From: an uncultured Clostridia bacterium
GTDB taxonomy: Bacteria > Bacillota > Clostridia > Lachnospirales > Lachnospiraceae
Assembly (NCBI GenBank): GCA_945622055.1
Contig: CALZBV010000002.1
Coordinates: 1 to 34,194, forward strand
DNA: 34,194 nucleotides
Direction of reading: 5' to 3'
Part shown: positions 1,385-24,927 of the stretch, one piece after another
Numbering within the stretch: position 1 is the first letter of the stretch
Layout: each line of letters opens with the position of its first letter
Notes under the pieces: model-generated
Seen by the model: the letters and a program-made list of their open reading frames with translations, nothing else
The model's database searches: none
What the model was told of the DNA's origin: nothing
Position numbers and translations under genes: made by a program

Positions 1385-2629
1385 TCATTTATCAAGCTTA
1401 TGAATGAACAGTCCGCTGCGAAGCTTTGGCTCGAACCAGGTGGACTTCGGAGGCATCAGACGACCGGCGTCGGAGACTGCGAACAGGTCCAGAATAGAGG
1501 TCGGATACATGGAAAATGCTACGGCACTGTCGACGCGGCAGCGACGCTCCAGTTCGGAAAGACCACGGATGCCACCGATGAAATCGATTCTGCGGTCGGT
1601 ACGCGGGTCGCCGATTCCCAGCACCGGGGTCAGAAGGTAGTCCTGAAGTAAGGAAACATCAAGAGACTCTACCGGGTCTGTAATGGAACGCAGGGAATCC
1701 TTGATGGTAAGACGGTACCAGCAGTCGTCAAGGAACATACCAAAGGTATGCTTTTCGGTCGGGGCGTAGGCCTCGGCTCCAAGCTTTTCTACGATAAACT
1801 GTTCTGCAACGCAGTGAAGGAACGTCTCAGCGGTGTATCCGTTTAAGTCTCTGACAACACGGTTGTATGGAAGAATCATCAGCTCATCCTCCGGGAAGAG
1901 AACGGAGAGGAAGTAGTTGAATTCCTCAGCGCCCGTGTAACCCGGGTGCTCTGCGCGGCGTTTCAGCCCCACTTTAACAGCGGAGGCGGCACGGTGGTGA
2001 CCGTCTGCAATGTAGATGCTGTCAATGGAGGAAAATGCGGCTTCCACAGCGGCAATATCTTCCGGCAGGCTGATACAGAAAACACGGTGCGTAATGCCGT
2101 CCTCTGAGGTAAAATCATAAAGCGGTTCGCCGGACTTTACCTTCGTTGTTATGGAATAAATCGTTTCATTTCTGCGGTACGCAAGGAAAATCGGACCGGT
2201 CTGTGCATTACACGTGTCAACATGACGGATGCGGTCTTCTTCCTTACTCTGACGTGTATTCTCATGCTTCTTAATGACATTGTTCTGATAGTCATCAATG
2301 GAAGCACAGGCAACAATACCGGTCTGGGTACGGCCGTTCATGGTAAGCTCATAAATATAGTAATTACGCGTCTCATCGGTCACGAAAACACCGTCTGCCA
2401 TCTCTTTATTCAGCATTTCTGCGGCCTTTTCGTAAACACAATCTGCATATGTGTCCACGTCATCGGAAAACTGTGTCTCCGCACGGTCAATATTCAAAAA
2501 AGAGAGAGGGTCTTTTGCTGCAGCGACTTTCGCTTCTGCGCGGTTGTATACATCATACGGAAGGGCAGCCACGCGGGAGGCAAGCTCCTTAGTCGGGTGA
2601 ATACAATGAAAAGGTTTGATGGTAGCCAT
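1385..2629 (-). CDS. DUF1015 family protein
   Basis: ORF with likely start MATIKPFHCIHPTKELASRVAALPYDVYNRAEA; DUF1015 hallmarks 'LPYDV' and 'IADGHHRAASA'. The upstream extension in the track is A/T-rich and unlikely to be coding. Confidence 0.85.
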   Translation of the reverse strand: MATIKPFHCIHPTKELASRVAALPYDVYNRAEAKVAAAKDPLSFLNIDRAETQFSDDVDTYADCVYEKAAEMLNKEMADGVFVTDETRNYYIYELTMNGRTQTGIVACASIDDYQNNVIKKHENTRQSKEEDRIRHVDTCNAQTGPIFLAYRRNETIYSITTKVKSGEPLYDFTSEDGITHRVFCISLPEDIAAVEAAFSSIDSIYIADGHHRAASAVKVGLKRRAEHPGYTGAEEFNYFLSVLFPEDELMILPYNRVVRDLNGYTAETFLHCVAEQFIVEKLGAEAYAPTEKHTFGMFLDDCWYRLTIKDSLRSITDPVESLDVSLLQDYLLTPVLGIGDPRTDRRIDFIGGIRGLSELERRCRVDSAVAFSMYPTSILDLFAVSDAGRLMPPKSTWFEPKLRSGLFIHKLDK

Positions 2630-2778
2630 AAGAGTCCTTTCCGGTAAAAACCTGTAATTTTTTTCTAAGTATACCCGATATGTTCGAAAAACGCAAGGGA
2701 ATGAAGGGGATTTTGGGACTTTTTTGGTAAATTTGTAAAAAGTGCAAAATATGTGTGGAAATTGCAAAAAAAATATAG

Positions 2779-2784
2779 TATAAT
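2779..2784 (+). promoter_or_regulatory. Putative -10 (TATAAT) upstream of the CheX-like gene
   Basis: tatagTATAATagcac about 50 bp upstream of the ATG at 2834; no good -35 seen. Confidence 0.5.
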
Positions 2785-2833
2785 AGCACTAATAGGCCGA
2801 ACATGATCGGCAGGACGCAAAGGGGGTAATTTC

Positions 2834-3712
2834 ATGGTTAGTCAGATTCTTGGAAACTACATGGTAGAAGAAGGATACATGACCCGGGAGCAGTTTGCCA
2901 AGGTTTTGGAGGAGCAGACAAAGATTCGCGTTAAGCTTGGCCTGATTGCTGTTTCAGAGGGTATGCTAACACTTGATCAGGCGGATGCAATTAACCGCAT
3001 GCAGCAGGTTCTGGATAAGCGTTTTGGAGATATTGCCGTGGAAAAGGGCTACCTGACGGAAAATCAGGTAAGCAGCCTGTTAAAGATGCAGGGGAATGAG
3101 TATCTTACCTTTGCCCAGACACTGGTGGACAGCGGAATTATTACAATGGACAAGCTGGGTGCCGTATTGAAGAACTTCCAGGTAGAGAACGGGTACACCA
3201 ATACCGAGATGGAAGCGATAAAGAGCGGAGAAGTTGAGAAGATTGTGCCGTTGTTTTTGCCGCAGGGTGCAGAGGAGTATGAGGCAGTTGTTACGGTAGC
3301 GTTAAAGACGGTAATTCGTTGCATCGACAGTCAGGCCTATCCGATGAATGGCGTGTTGGCAGACAGCGTGTCGTTAAAGCGCCCGGTACTGCAGGAGCTG
3401 GGCGGTGAACAGTACTGGAAGATTGGTTTTTCTGATGTTGATGAGAGCCTTTGCTCCATCGCATCGGTATTTGCAAGAGAGAACTTCAGTGTAGTGGATG
3501 AGGATGCACAGGATGCAGTGGGTGAATTTGTTAACTGTATCAATGGTCTGTTTGCTACTTCACTTAGTGCACAGGGCATTTCGGTGGAACTGCTTCCGCC
3601 GGAGCTTGGAAAGTCTGCAGAGGTTTCCGGAAAGAAGATTCTTATGATTCCGTTCGGAATCTGCGGCACTACAGTTCATTTTGTTGTAACCGATCAGAAG
3701 GAATGGAGGTAA
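2834..3712 (+). CDS. CheX-like chemotaxis phosphatase domain protein with N-terminal MshEN-like repeats
   Basis: N-terminus has 24-residue repeats (LGxxxVxxGxxTxxQ...Q) spaced by 5 residues. C-terminus has D-x3-E-x2-N (DAVGEFVN) followed by PP, typical of the CheC/CheX/FliY phosphatase fold. Followed by cheY. Confidence 0.75.
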   Translation: MVSQILGNYMVEEGYMTREQFAKVLEEQTKIRVKLGLIAVSEGMLTLDQADAINRMQQVLDKRFGDIAVEKGYLTENQVSSLLKMQGNEYLTFAQTLVDSGIITMDKLGAVLKNFQVENGYTNTEMEAIKSGEVEKIVPLFLPQGAEEYEAVVTVALKTVIRCIDSQAYPMNGVLADSVSLKRPVLQELGGEQYWKIGFSDVDESLCSIASVFARENFSVVDEDAQDAVGEFVNCINGLFATSLSAQGISVELLPPELGKSAEVSGKKILMIPFGICGTTVHFVVTDQKEWR

Positions 3713-3718
3713 AAGGGA

Positions 3719-4081
3719 ATGGCAACCGTATTGATTGTAGATGATTCCAGAACGTCGAGAAAGATTCTTGGTGATGTTTTGAGAAATATGGGCTTGGAAG
3801 TAGTTGGCGAGGCCGTAAACGGTGAGGAGGGCTTCCTTAAGTATAAGGAGCTGAAGCCGGACCTTGTGACGATGGATATTACCATGCCGGTGATGTCCGG
3901 ACTGGAGTCGCTGCTCCTGATTAAGCACGAGAATGCCAACGCAAAGGTAATTATGATTACCGCAGCAGGACAGAAGGAGAACCTGATGCAGGCAGTAAAG
4001 GCCGGAGCAGAGGAGTTCCTTACCAAGCCGCTTGAGGAAGCTGAGGTTCGTCGTGTTGTTACGGAGGTTCTCGCGAAGTAA
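3719..4081 (+). CDS. cheY: Single-domain response regulator, CheY-like
   Basis: MATVLIVDDSRTSRKIL...DLVTMDITMPVMSG...KVIMITAAGQ...GAEEFLTKPLE; classic receiver domain with DD, phospho-D, T/S and K. Confidence 0.93.
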   Translation: MATVLIVDDSRTSRKILGDVLRNMGLEVVGEAVNGEEGFLKYKELKPDLVTMDITMPVMSGLESLLLIKHENANAKVIMITAAGQKENLMQAVKAGAEEFLTKPLEEAEVRRVVTEVLAK

Positions 4082-4102
4082 CTGAATTTTCAGAATGAAA
4101 GG

Positions 4103-4150
4103 AAGCTGTCATATCAGACCGGAGAGGAATGGTATGGCAGCTTTTTTGTG
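4103..4150 (+). terminator. Rho-independent terminator after cheY
   Basis: AAGCTGTCATA ... TATGGCAGCTT stem followed by TTTTTT. Confidence 0.75.
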
Positions 4151-4188
4151 TAATAGGAAATTCCTCGAATTTCCTATTACACAAAAAA
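4142..4188. repeat. Perfect 21-bp inverted repeat with 5-nt loop
   Basis: TTTTTTGTGTAATAGGAAATT-cctcg-AATTTCCTATTACACAAAAAA. Confidence 0.9.
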
Positions 4189-4208
4189 ACGCTCCGCGGG
4201 GATGCACA

Positions 4209-4311
4209 CGCTTTTGCTAAGGAATATGTCGCAAAAATGCGACGCAAAAGCGGCGCAGAATATCGCGAAGCGATATTCTTTGTTTAGTGACATAGTGCTT
4301 TTCAGAAAAGC
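4209..4311. repeat. Cluster of consecutive short inverted repeats
   Basis: CGCTTTTGC(4209-4217)/GCAAAAGCG(4244-4252) enclosing GTCGCA-aaaa-TGCGAC(4228-4243); GAATATCGC-gaa-GCGATATTC(4258-4278); GCTTTT-cag-AAAAGC(4297-4311). Confidence 0.85.
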
Positions 4312-11987: not shown

Positions 11988-12061
11988 TTTGATAAGGGAG
12001 GATGTGTAAATTTTATCAAAAGAAAAAGATTGCTTCAAGGCAGCAAGGAGGTTTGCGCACC

Positions 12062-14317
12062 ATGAAACAGGCTACGAATTTGTTAAAATTTTTCAACAAG
12101 GAAACATCAGAGGACGAAACAAAAAAAACAGAGGATTTAAAAAGAAAAACATCAGGGAAAAGTAATGAACCGGTGGCTTTTAAGGATAAAATGAGAGCGA
12201 TGAAACCGAAAAAAGAAAAGAAGCCGGAAAAGAGAATGGAAAAGAAGCCGGAAAAGAGAACGGTGATTCCTGCAAAGAAGAAAAAGATGAGGAGCATACG
12301 TACGCAGCTGATTGGAATGTATTGCGTACCGATTGCCTTTATTCTGATTCTTGGACTGATTTGTACCTCCACAGCAGCACGGTCGCTTCAGAAGAATTAT
12401 GAACAGGCGGCAAGCTCTACGATTCTGGCAAGAGCGGATCAGTTTTCCCTGATTTTCTCTACGGTAGAGTCAAAGATGTCCCAGCTGAACTCAAACAGTA
12501 ACATATCCCTGTATTACGGAGGGGCACTTACGGAGAAAAGCAAGTCTGAGACAGAGGCGAAAAAAGCCATTCAGGCGGAGATAGGAACGCTTGGCGGAGA
12601 ACGGGAGCAGATGATTGGAAATATTGCGGTTCTTGCGGATTACGGTGTTTCCTATGCCTCTGACGGAACGTTTCAAAATACCGGGCTTGCAACGAGGTTC
12701 GCACAGAGCGAGGAGGGAAAGGCATTTCTTTCCGGCGGAAAGGAATTTGACTGGACCTCTTACCATAATTTTGTTGATTCTGAGCTCGGCCTTCGCTCAG
12801 AGGATTATTTCATGGCGGTAACGACCGTGATGAAAAATGCACTTGGAAAAGAAATTGGATACATTTCCGCGGATATCCGTATGGATATGATTACGCAGAC
12901 ACTTTCCACGATTGAGCTTGCAGAGGGAAGTATTTTTTGTGTGACTGCAGTGGACGGAAGCGAAGCCGGTGTGAACGGAAGAAATACCGAATCGGTATTT
13001 TCAGCAAAAGAAACCTACCGGAAGGCAATAAATACAGGTGCTTTGGCCAAGGACTATGAAAAGATTGACGGAAAGAACTATCTGATTATCTGTTCTCCGA
13101 TTGGCGAAACCGGTGTAATGCTCTGCGGTGCGATTCCGAAGAATGAGATTATCGCAAGTGCAAATTCGATTCGTATGCTTACGGTTATCATGATAGCGAT
13201 TTCCGTGATATGCTCCGTTGCACTTGGTATGTATGTTGCCGGCGCTTATGCAAAGGCAATGAAGCGTACCATGGTTGGACTGGATCGTATGGCAAGAGGT
13301 GATTTGTCTGCGAAGCTTCGTACCGGAAGAAAGGACGAATTCGGGGCTTTGGTAGCCTGTGCGAATAAGTCGGTAGTGAACATGAAGGGCATGGTGGAAA
13401 AGACCTCGGCAGTAGCAGACAGTGTCGGAAGCTCTGCACTGGATGTGGAAGACACCTCCACAAAGCTTCTAAAGGCGACACAGAACATAACGAGCTCCAT
13501 CTCCGAGATTCGAAACGGTATTGTCCAGCAGGCAGAGGATTCGGAGCGCTGCCTTATTCAGAGTGAAGAGCTCAGCAGCCGGATCAATGAAGTAAAAGAG
13601 GATGCCGATGCCATCGATGAGCTTGCAAAGAATGCAAAGACCGCCGTGGAAAAAGGTATGGATGCTATCGGTATTCTGGAAAAGAAGGGCGAGGAGACGA
13701 GCGCAATTACCAGACGAATTACGGTTGATATGGACGCACTGGTAAAGGAGTCCCATTCGATTGGAAAGATTACCGGTGTTATCAATGATATTGCAGAACA
13801 GACGAACCTCCTGTCGTTAAATGCTTCCATTGAGGCAGCACGTGCAGGTGAGGCAGGGCGTGGGTTCGCAGTTGTTGCAGACGAGATTCGCCGGCTGGCA
13901 GAGCAGTCCGTGGAGGCGGCAGGTGAGATTGCCAAGATTGTAGACGGAATCAAAAAGCAGACCGAGGGAACCGTGCAGACGGTGGAGCAGGCAGAAAGCA
14001 TTGTAGCCTCCCAGAGTGTTGCGCTGAATCATACGATTGCTTTGTTCAGGAATATTGATGACAATGTAGAGGAAATGACGGAGCGTCTGGAGCACATCTC
14101 CGAAGGTGTTGACCGGATTGGGCAGGCACAGACGGTTACGGTAGATGCAATCAGCAGCATTTCGGCGATTTCCGAACAGACCTCTGCTGCGTCTGAGGAG
14201 GTACAGAATATGGTTGACCTTCAGCTGACGGCGGTGGAGAATCTGACCGGTGCATCTTCAGTACTGAACGAAAAGGCAAAAGAGCTTCAGGATGTACTGA
14301 GTGCATTCCGCATATAA
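12062..14317 (+). CDS. Methyl-accepting chemotaxis protein
   Basis: SD aaggaggt before the ATG; two TMs, HAMP ('[32 protein letters not shown]'), signalling hairpin '[40 protein letters not shown]'. Confidence 0.95.
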
Positions 14318-22876: not shown

Positions 22877-22894
22877 ATGAGTATAAATTGAATT

Positions 22895-23065
22895 TGTGGT
22901 AGAGGTGCATCGATTATCAGTACACTGTGGGATATGACAGGACATAGGTGAACACAGAGGAAAGGATGAGATGCCGAAGCGGCGGTTGCCTGGGAATCGT
23001 CTGCTGGGGCCGGGGTGAACAGCTCCGGGACTGTCATCATGTATTTGATGGAGGGCTACCGGAGA
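22895..23065 (+). ncRNA. Lysine riboswitch (L-box)
   Basis: L-box core: GGTAGAGGTGC, AGTAC, GGATGAGATGCCGAAGCGGC, TGCTGGG, GACTGTCATC...GATGGAGGGCTACC; P1 GGTAG/CTACC; located upstream of dapA. Confidence 0.93.
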
Positions 23066-23108
23066 CATTACACACGGGTCGTGCGTGTGTACGCCAAAGG
23101 GCAGCTTC

Positions 23109-23138: not shown

Positions 23139-23239
23139 ACAGGAAATTATATGATTTCCTGTAAGCAGGACGCACCGCAGGAATTGCACTGCGAGTGCTT
23201 TTGGTACTTATTCATTCTTATTTCAGGGAGGTAAACATT

Positions 23240-24124
23240 ATGGCGATTTTTACAGGAGCAGGTGTTGCAATTGTTACACCGATGAAGGCAAACGGAGAGG
23301 TAAATTACGATAAGCTTGGCGAGATGATTGAGTTTCAGATTGCAGGAGGCACAGACGCAATCATCATTTGCGGAACGACCGGTGAGGCGTCCACATTAAG
23401 CCACGAGGAGCATTTAGAGTGCATCCGTTACACGACGGCAAAGGTTGCAAAGAGAATTCCGGTGGTTGCGGGAACCGGTTCCAACTGCACCGAGACTGCG
23501 ATTTATCTGTCAAAGGAAGCAGAGAAGGCAGGCGCGGACGGACTTTTACTGGTTACCCCGTACTACAACAAGGCTACCCAGAAGGGCCTGATTGCGCATT
23601 TTACGGAGACGGCCAAGTCGGTAAACATTCCGGCGATTCTTTACAATGTTCCAAGCCGTACCGGATGTAATCTTCTTCCGGCAACGGTTGCTTCCCTTGT
23701 AAAGAATGTTGATAACATTGTCGGCATCAAGGACGCAACCGGAAATATCAGCCAGACGATGCAGACGATGCAGCTTTGCCAGGGAGATATCGACCTGTAC
23801 TCCGGCAATGACGACCAGATTGTCCCGGTAATGGCAGCCGGTGGCATCGGAGTCATTTCCGTATTATCCAACATTGCCCCGAAGGAAACGCATGATATCT
23901 GTGCTAAGTTTGCTTCCGGAGACGCAAAGGGTGCCCTTGCGCTCCAGTTAAAGTACCTGAACCTGATTAACGCGCTGTTTTGTGAGGTCAATCCGATTCC
24001 GGTAAAGGCCGCTTTAAACCTGATGGGCAAGGAGGTTGGTCCGCTTCGCCTTCCGCTTACCGAGATGGAGGCTGTAAACAAGGAAAAGCTGGCAGAGGAA
24101 ATGAGAAAGGTTGGTCTTATCTAG
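23240..24124 (+). CDS. dapA: 4-hydroxy-tetrahydrodipicolinate synthase
   Basis: 'GAGVAIVTPMKANGEVNYDKL', 'IICGTTGEASTLSHEEH', 'VTPYYNKATQKGL', 'YNVPSRTGCNL', 'IVGIKDATGN'; SD aggaggt-like. Confidence 0.97.
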   Translation: MAIFTGAGVAIVTPMKANGEVNYDKLGEMIEFQIAGGTDAIIICGTTGEASTLSHEEHLECIRYTTAKVAKRIPVVAGTGSNCTETAIYLSKEAEKAGADGLLLVTPYYNKATQKGLIAHFTETAKSVNIPAILYNVPSRTGCNLLPATVASLVKNVDNIVGIKDATGNISQTMQTMQLCQGDIDLYSGNDDQIVPVMAAGGIGVISVLSNIAPKETHDICAKFASGDAKGALALQLKYLNLINALFCEVNPIPVKAALNLMGKEVGPLRLPLTEMEAVNKEKLAEEMRKVGLI

Positions 24125-24159
24125 TCAGCATTATGAGAAGATACCGTCAGGAGGAAAAT

Positions 24160-24927
24160 ATGGTACGAATTATTATGATAGGCTGCAATGGTAAAATGGG
24201 ACGTACGATTTCTGAGCTTGCAGCGGTTGATGAGCAGGTAAAGATTGTTGCCGGAATCGATCTGAATCCGGTTCAGTTATACGATTATCCGGTTTTTGTC
24301 AGTCCGGAGGAATGTGATGTGGAGGCAGATGTTTTGATTGACTTCTCCTCCACACAAAAGCTTACAGAGCGTCTTTGCATGGCAGTTGAGCGCAATATGC
24401 CGATTGTACTTTGTACGACGGGACTGAGCGAGGAGCAGTATGCCCAGGTAAAGGAAGCCTCCGGGAAGGTAGCGGTGCTTCGTTCCGCTAACATGTCTCT
24501 TGGTATTAACACGATTATGAAGCTTGTTGCTGCTGCAACGAAGGTGTTTGCTGCTGCCAACTTTGATATTGAAATCGTGGAAAAGCATCACAACCAGAAG
24601 GTGGATGCTCCGTCCGGAACTGCACTCGCGATTGCCGATGCAATCAATGAGGCTTTGAAGGAATCCCTGGAGGAGGAGTATGCATACAAGTTTGACCGTT
24701 CCCAGGAAAGAAAGAAGCGCGAAAAGAAGGAAATCGGTATTTCCGCAGTGCGCGGAGGAACAATTGTCGGGGAGCATGAGGTGATTTTTGCCGGTGCCGA
24801 TGAGGTGATTGAGATTCGCCATACGGCATATTCCAAGGCAATCTTTGGAAACGGTGCGCTTCAGGCTGCAAAGTACCTGGCAGGAAAGCCGGCCGGTATG
24901 TACAACATGAGCGATGTTATCGGTTAA
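24160..24927 (+). CDS. dapB: 4-hydroxy-tetrahydrodipicolinate reductase
   Basis: 'MVRIIMIGCNGKMGRTISE', 'VEKHHNQKVDAPSGTAL', 'GISAVRGGTIVGEHEVIFAG'. Confidence 0.97.
   Translation: MVRIIMIGCNGKMGRTISELAAVDEQVKIVAGIDLNPVQLYDYPVFVSPEECDVEADVLIDFSSTQKLTERLCMAVERNMPIVLCTTGLSEEQYAQVKEASGKVAVLRSANMSLGINTIMKLVAAATKVFAAANFDIEIVEKHHNQKVDAPSGTALAIADAINEALKESLEEEYAYKFDRSQERKKREKKEIGISAVRGGTIVGEHEVIFAGADEVIEIRHTAYSKAIFGNGALQAAKYLAGKPAGMYNMSDVIG

Follow-up and report, generated by a model that had tools for sequence, protein, structure and literature searches.

The DNA analysed here, referred to below as the window, is a stretch of 34,194 nt (contig CALZBV010000002.1 of assembly GCA_945622055.1, positions 1 to 34,194) from an uncultured gut bacterium of the Lachnospiraceae. 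On its forward strand, an open reading frame supported by domain models (2834..3712) encodes a protein of 292 residues in which MshEN-type repeats are fused to a CheX-type domain. It is followed after a gap of 6 nt by cheY (3719..4081), whose 120-residue product is a single receiver (Pfam Response_reg, E 1.5e-28) with Asp53 as phospho-acceptor. Re-reading the window sequence bore out the reading frame, the coordinates, the repeat register and the intergenic gap given in the first-pass annotation. The fusion gene is preceded by a Shine-Dalgarno-like AAGGGGGT (2820..2827, read from the sequence), and the ribosome-binding site of cheY, a GGAGG located 9 nt ahead of its start (3705..3709, likewise read from the sequence), lies within the 3′ end of the upstream gene, which suggests that the two genes are translationally coupled. 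Upstream of the pair, a consensus scan alone gives a sigma-70-like promoter match, TGGAAA-17-TATAAT (2756..2784, + strand, 10/12), in a scan whose match count is not above that of shuffled sequences. On the 3′ side of cheY, positions 4142-4188 form a perfect 22-bp inverted repeat with a 3-nt loop, flanked by a T run before and an A run after, which may serve as a terminator in both directions or represent a small mobile repeat.

The N-terminal 115 residues of the fusion protein are filled by four 24-residue motifs that start at residues 5, 34, 63 and 92, at a constant spacing of 29. Scored against the published relaxed MshEN motif, repeats 1 to 4 reach 10, 10, 11 and 8 of 11, a sum of 39/44, whereas no more than 29 was reached when the N-terminal 120 residues were shuffled 20,000 times, so a chance repeat is ruled out. 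In the same protein, no spacing between 24 and 35 other than 29 scores above 27. A profile search agrees with an MshEN-type N-terminus, as NCBIfam NF053729 (MshE-related c-di-GMP_motif) matches with E 3e-18 and 65.3 bits for a cut-off of 38, although single repeat pairs each fall below this cut-off and only the summed repeats pass it. The four repeats of 24+5 periodicity described in the first-pass annotation are therefore real, and so is the loss of the canonical Arg that it reported for repeats 1 and 4. Repeat 1 (residues 5-28, 2846..2917) is a degenerate flank with Ile/Leu at the Arg position, and repeat 4 (residues 92-115, 3107..3178) is another, which lacks Arg and in addition has Ala for the motif Gly and Phe at the Gln position. 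These last two changes had gone unremarked, as had the composition of repeat 2, which begins with Lys and carries Ala and Asn in place of the Leu/Leu of the motif. The full relaxed motif is passed by repeat 3 only.

The first reading of these repeats was a tandem of two MshEN-like modules. The evidence from conservation, from the contact residues and from the profile aligned with MshE instead favours a single core made of repeats 2 (2933-3004) and 3 (3020-3091), that is, residues 34-86 (2933..3091). Among 90 homologues, repeats 1, 2, 3 and 4 have 4, 11, 14 and 2 of their 24 columns at least 90% identical. With 25 of its 48 repeat columns at this level, the core is conserved more strongly than any other part of the protein, the catalytic CheX domain (15 of 140 columns) included. 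A profile built from 18 orthologues found as its top solved structure the Vibrio cholerae MshE (5htl, residues 4-61, E 1e-6), and this alignment covers residues 29-86 of the window protein, once more repeats 2 and 3. The c-di-GMP-binding unit of MshEN spans 53 residues (PMC5013675), exactly the length of residues 34-86. As conservation, length and profile match coincide at this place, a single MshEN core flanked by two eroded repeats is the simplest reading of the sequence and the one we favour, and the arrangement of modules 1+2 and 3+4 was rejected. In the predicted model, the N-terminus superposes on 5htl_B over 55 columns (Foldseek, rmsd 1.0, 31% identity, probability 1.00) with an E value of 0.64, weak as expected from so short a superposition, and has a four-helix fold of the MshEN_N type.

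A close-up view of the ligand-contact positions was obtained by mapping the contacts of MshE (PMC5013675) onto repeats 2 and 3 of 116 homologues. On the side of repeat 2, R9 of MshE corresponds to K34 (113 Lys, 3 Arg), G11 to G36 and Q32 to Q57, the last two invariant in all 116. On the side of repeat 3, R38 corresponds to R63 (105 Arg, 9 Lys), L39 to F64 and G40 to G65 (both 116/116), D41 to D66 (103 Asp, 13 Glu), L54 to V/I/L79 (114/116), L58 to L83 (111/116) and Q61 to Q86 (115/116). Both halves of the core thus keep the Arg/Lys at motif position 1, the Gly at 3 and the Gln at 24 of MshEN. The hydrophobic residues expected at positions 17 and 21 are present in repeat 3 (V79/L83) and missing in repeat 2, where the two altered guanine-pocket positions (2981..2995) are Ala50 for Leu25 of MshE and Asn54 for Leu29. 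Throughout the 116 homologues position 50 is mostly Ala (82) or Val (19), and position 54 is Asn in 101 and His in 13, which together make 114/116. The asymmetry is therefore family-wide, with a canonical half-site 3 (R63, G65, D66, V/I/L79, L83, Q86) and a half-site 2 altered in so uniform a way that selection is suggested.

From the sequences, these two core substitutions weigh more than the loss of Arg in repeats 1 and 4, and they speak against c-di-GMP binding: no pair of repeats makes a perfect MshEN, and the guanine-stacking pair of the core appears as Ala and Asn/His across the family. Single substitutions of conserved hydrophobic residues in MshE cost more than 10-fold in affinity (Wang et al., PMC5013675), and binding has also been reported for proteins with imperfect MshEN motifs (PMC5013675). 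With these considerations in mind, binding of a cyclic dinucleotide to the core seems likely. The window genome carries 13 GGDEF domains, which makes c-di-GMP the default candidate.

CheX proteins have one D-x3-E-x2-N helix and CheC proteins two, and the C-terminal half of the window protein, which had been described as CheC/CheX-like, has one. Pfam CheX matches residues 202-274 (32.8 bits, cut-off 27), within a domain that extends over residues 147-286 (3272..3691). The NCBIfam model CheX_Thtogales (NF041094) gives 23.6 bits against a curated cut-off of 280, so the protein is not the Thermotogales equivalog. The AlphaFold2 model of the 292 residues (mean pLDDT 92.1, pTM 0.83) displays a CheX fold next to the MshE-like one: the top matches of Foldseek in the PDB are the CheX structures 3hm4 (E 4e-10, TM 0.77 by target length), 1squ and 3hzh (TM 0.72 by target length), the latter taken from a CheX-CheY complex, followed lower down by CheC, FliY and FliM. 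The catalytic signature D/S-x3-E-x2-N-x21/22-P is complete. Its first part, D227-x3-E231-x2-N234 (DAVGEFVN), is found at 3512..3535, and Pro255-Pro256 at 3596..3601, 21 and 22 residues after Asn234, just where the first-pass annotation had placed them. Conservation among 116 homologues is 107 for Asp, 113 for Glu, 116 for Asn, and 106 and 102 for the two Pro, and helix 223-246 with the Glu/Asn motif is the best conserved stretch of the CheX domain. E231 is replaced by Asp in two CheW-containing holders (L018/G023 and L174/G172). Family knowledge and the intact motif together lead to the expectation that the CheX domain acts as a phosphatase.

The pairing of this protein with a CheY, suggested by the first-pass annotation, turned out to be near-obligate. 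In the 80 loci surveyed in named genomes, which are nearly all Lachnospiraceae metagenome-assembled genomes and include the isolate Kineothrix sp. MSJ-39, cheY lies directly 3′ of the fusion gene on the same strand in 79, the one left being L062 (4001-4861). A second gene without an adjoining cheY was seen in L115, one of the two copies of genome G146. The order can be reversed, with cheY upstream, in families of the class and phylum that are more distantly related. The window cheY product keeps its acidic pair, Asp53, Thr81 and Lys103, and D8, D9, D53, T81 and K103 are invariant in 81 partner sequences. In 11 genomes both proteins are joined in single MshEN-CheX-REC chains of about 437-476 residues (L013, L015, L017, L186-L193). 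The model of the L013 fusion has high confidence, which does not speak to the CheX-REC interface. When the open reading frames of the neighbourhoods were clustered, each further gene accompanied the pair in at most 22 of the 80 loci, and a regular-expression search for c-di-GMP enzymes encoded next to the cassette yielded one clear case among 122 loci. One of the genomes with a REC fusion, G017, also carries a CheX paralogue without MshEN beside a similar CheY (L030, 1501-1995 and 2216-2575), which suggests that the MshEN sensor was added to a CheX-CheY pair.

At E<=0.001, 29 of 61 relatives contain matches to the fusion, a part of which cover one domain only. A wider survey included 298 genomes of the family, mostly one per genus and at least 90% complete except the window's own, of which 93 hold the gene at E<=1e-20. 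These holders comprise 92 of the 160 genomes with CheW and 1 of the 138 without it (Fisher p 2e-31, ancestry uncorrected), and in the smaller panel of relatives the gene is present in 19/24 CheW-containing and 0/13 CheW-lacking genomes. The two-gene unit is thus widespread in chemotactic Lachnospiraceae, and it is dispensable for chemotaxis, as 68 CheW-containing genomes of the family do without it. Two genomes with many GGDEF domains and no CheW (G024 and G035) lack the gene. A role in type IV pili, as for MshE, is not favoured, because the presence of the gene follows CheW. For a finding made on sequences only, the assignment of CheY as the probable substrate is unusually firm, owing to the strict co-occurrence with CheW and to the naturally occurring fusions with REC.

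The sole holder without CheW, G672, also lacks flagellin. At its locus (L185, G672:C6, 1489-2433) the CheX motif reads NTVSDFLN, with Asp and Glu changed, and the MshEN core looks intact. In the CheY of G672, one residue of the acidic pair is gone, as is the active-site Thr. Beside this locus, a gene for a GGDEF-EAL protein runs in the divergent direction (2516-4252). These changes are suggestive of a decay of the phospho-chemistry once the kinase was gone, in what is a single case and with a Glu-to-Asp change that, taken alone, is also seen in the two CheW-containing holders mentioned above.

Regarding the chemotaxis setting of the window genome, it encodes four CheW domains and four flagellins, a CheA-CheW-CheC-CheD operon on another contig and, elsewhere, a separate canonical CheY similar to that of Bacillus subtilis. 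Two stand-alone CheX genes are also present (G000:C111:7127-7396 and G000:C182:179-415), and the 2.2-Mb draft contains four matches of CheX/CheC type when the CheC of the che operon is counted. Membership of the pair in the main che/fla operon was rejected, since its neighbours besides cheY vary and CheA-CheW-CheC-CheD lies on another contig. As a separate CheY, a che operon and two stand-alone CheX genes exist in the same genome, the MshEN-CheX/CheY pair is most likely an accessory branch of chemotaxis.

Altogether, we consider the window protein to be most probably a cyclic-dinucleotide-regulated phosphatase of phosphorylated CheY that acts with its own CheY in an accessory branch of flagellar chemotaxis and binds c-di-GMP through its core, a reading to which we assign a probability of somewhat under 60%. 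The architecture, the conserved motifs, the fold, the pairing with CheY, the tie to chemotaxis and the presence of GGDEF proteins are seen in the data themselves, whereas we infer that c-di-GMP is the ligand and CheA the kinase, and likewise the gating, its direction and the output. In such a mechanism, c-di-GMP would bind to repeats 2 and 3, and the bound ligand would alter the four-helix-type sensor and thereby the activity or the dimer geometry of CheX. The partner CheY, presumably phosphorylated by the CheA of the cell, would be dephosphorylated by the CheX domain encoded next to it, or joined to it as a receiver in some species, by means of Glu231 and Asn234. The level of c-di-GMP would then set the active lifetime of this second CheY, which may either act on the flagellar switch or compete with the main CheY as a sink for phosphate. 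A gating of CheY dephosphorylation by c-di-GMP, as proposed by the first-pass annotation, seems likely.

The chief rival explanation keeps the phosphatase and dispenses with the ligand: the MshEN repeats would be a dimerisation or docking scaffold, and CheX a constitutive phosphatase for its CheY. It could account for the replacement of the guanine-stacking Leu pair by Ala50 and Asn/His54 and for the degeneration of repeats 1 and 4, and loss of binding by such changes is on record for some homologues (PMC5013675). A scaffold, however, would not need polar and backbone contacts (K/R, G, Q, D/E) that are near invariant in 116 homologues and lie in the most conserved region of the protein, and repeats 1 and 4, equally scaffold-like, have drifted, so that we regard this explanation as unlikely. 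Alternatively, the core might bind another nucleotide such as 3′3′-cGAMP, with a canonical guanine half-site in repeat 3 and an altered half-site in repeat 2 with its Asn/His54. The strict asymmetry between half-sites speaks for it, as does the weak binding of cGAMP by the V. cholerae MshEN (PMC5013675), but GGDEF proteins abound in the window genome and MshE tells bases apart by backbone amides beside a Gly that is kept here, which leaves this option with a very low probability. A related idea, that half-site 2 has been retuned by the Leu to Asn/His and Leu to Ala changes to another ligand or affinity window, giving an asymmetric sensor and a receptor class in which a cyclic dinucleotide other than c-di-GMP directly gates CheY dephosphorylation, strikes us as quite improbable.

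The remaining explanation concerns the other end of the protein. The CheX-like domain could mainly serve as a binding platform, a role open to folds of the CheC/FliM type, and hold or deliver CheY in a complex controlled by c-di-GMP. Fold matches that reach FliY, FliM and CheC and the fusion of REC to MshEN-CheX in 11 genomes would be in line with this, yet the catalytic Glu and Asn are kept in 113 and 116 of 116 homologues and no stretch of the domain is better conserved than helix 223-246, and we give this explanation little credence.

Returning to the c-di-GMP-regulated phosphatase, its parts have known relatives. Like the MshEN of V. cholerae MshE (PDB 5HTL; PMC5013675), the core spans 53 residues, in which 5 residues separate two motifs of 24, and it has Arg/Lys, Gly, Gln and Leu/Phe at the contact positions; unlike MshE, the window protein has four repeats instead of two, Ala and Asn/His for the Leu pair of guanine 1, and a CheX partner domain instead of an ATPase. 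It shares with the CheX phosphatases of Thermotoga maritima (1SQU/1XKO) and Borrelia burgdorferi (3HZH) the single D-x3-E-x2-N helix, the alpha/beta fold (TM between the predicted model and 3HZH or 1SQU of 0.72-0.74, normalised by target length) and a CheY alongside. At 15-21% identity, it differs from them by the N-terminal MshEN repeats and linker, and by forming with cheY a two-gene unit outside the che operon, REC-fused in some species. The predicted c-di-GMP input would resemble that of the Cle proteins of Caulobacter (PMC5677366), in which c-di-GMP reaches the flagellar motor via CheY-like proteins. There the CheY-like protein itself binds c-di-GMP, whereas here the putative sensor sits on the phosphatase. 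Similarly, c-di-GMP acts on a chemotaxis enzyme in the MapZ-CheR1 system of Pseudomonas (PMC6370697), as predicted here, but through a separate PilZ adaptor on receptor methylation, not through a putative sensor built into a CheY phosphatase.

The MshEN-CheX architecture has been known in outline since 2016, when CheX was named among the domains associated with MshEN with no function given (PMC5013675). In the literature searched, this is the one paper that deals with both MshEN and CheX, and a search on CheX with c-di-GMP or Lachnospiraceae retrieved no functional study of the fusion. If the proposed reading is true, a c-di-GMP sensor built into a phosphatase of CheY-P would be a new control point, located at signal termination. 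So far, c-di-GMP is known to act on motility by way of motor brakes, Cle proteins of CheY type, chemoreceptors and the methylation of receptors. To our knowledge, c-di-GMP effectors for swimming are little known in the Lachnospiraceae, which are major gut commensals, and MshEN-CheX with its CheY offers a compact two-protein system that is tractable in vitro.

Elsewhere in the window, a methyl-accepting chemotaxis protein (12002-14317), which weakly matches dCache, is found beside solute-binding and ABC transport genes. Further downstream, an ordinary lysine riboswitch (22892-23066; Rfam RF00168, 110.7 bits) precedes a dapA-like (23195-24124) and a dapB-like (24133-24927) gene.
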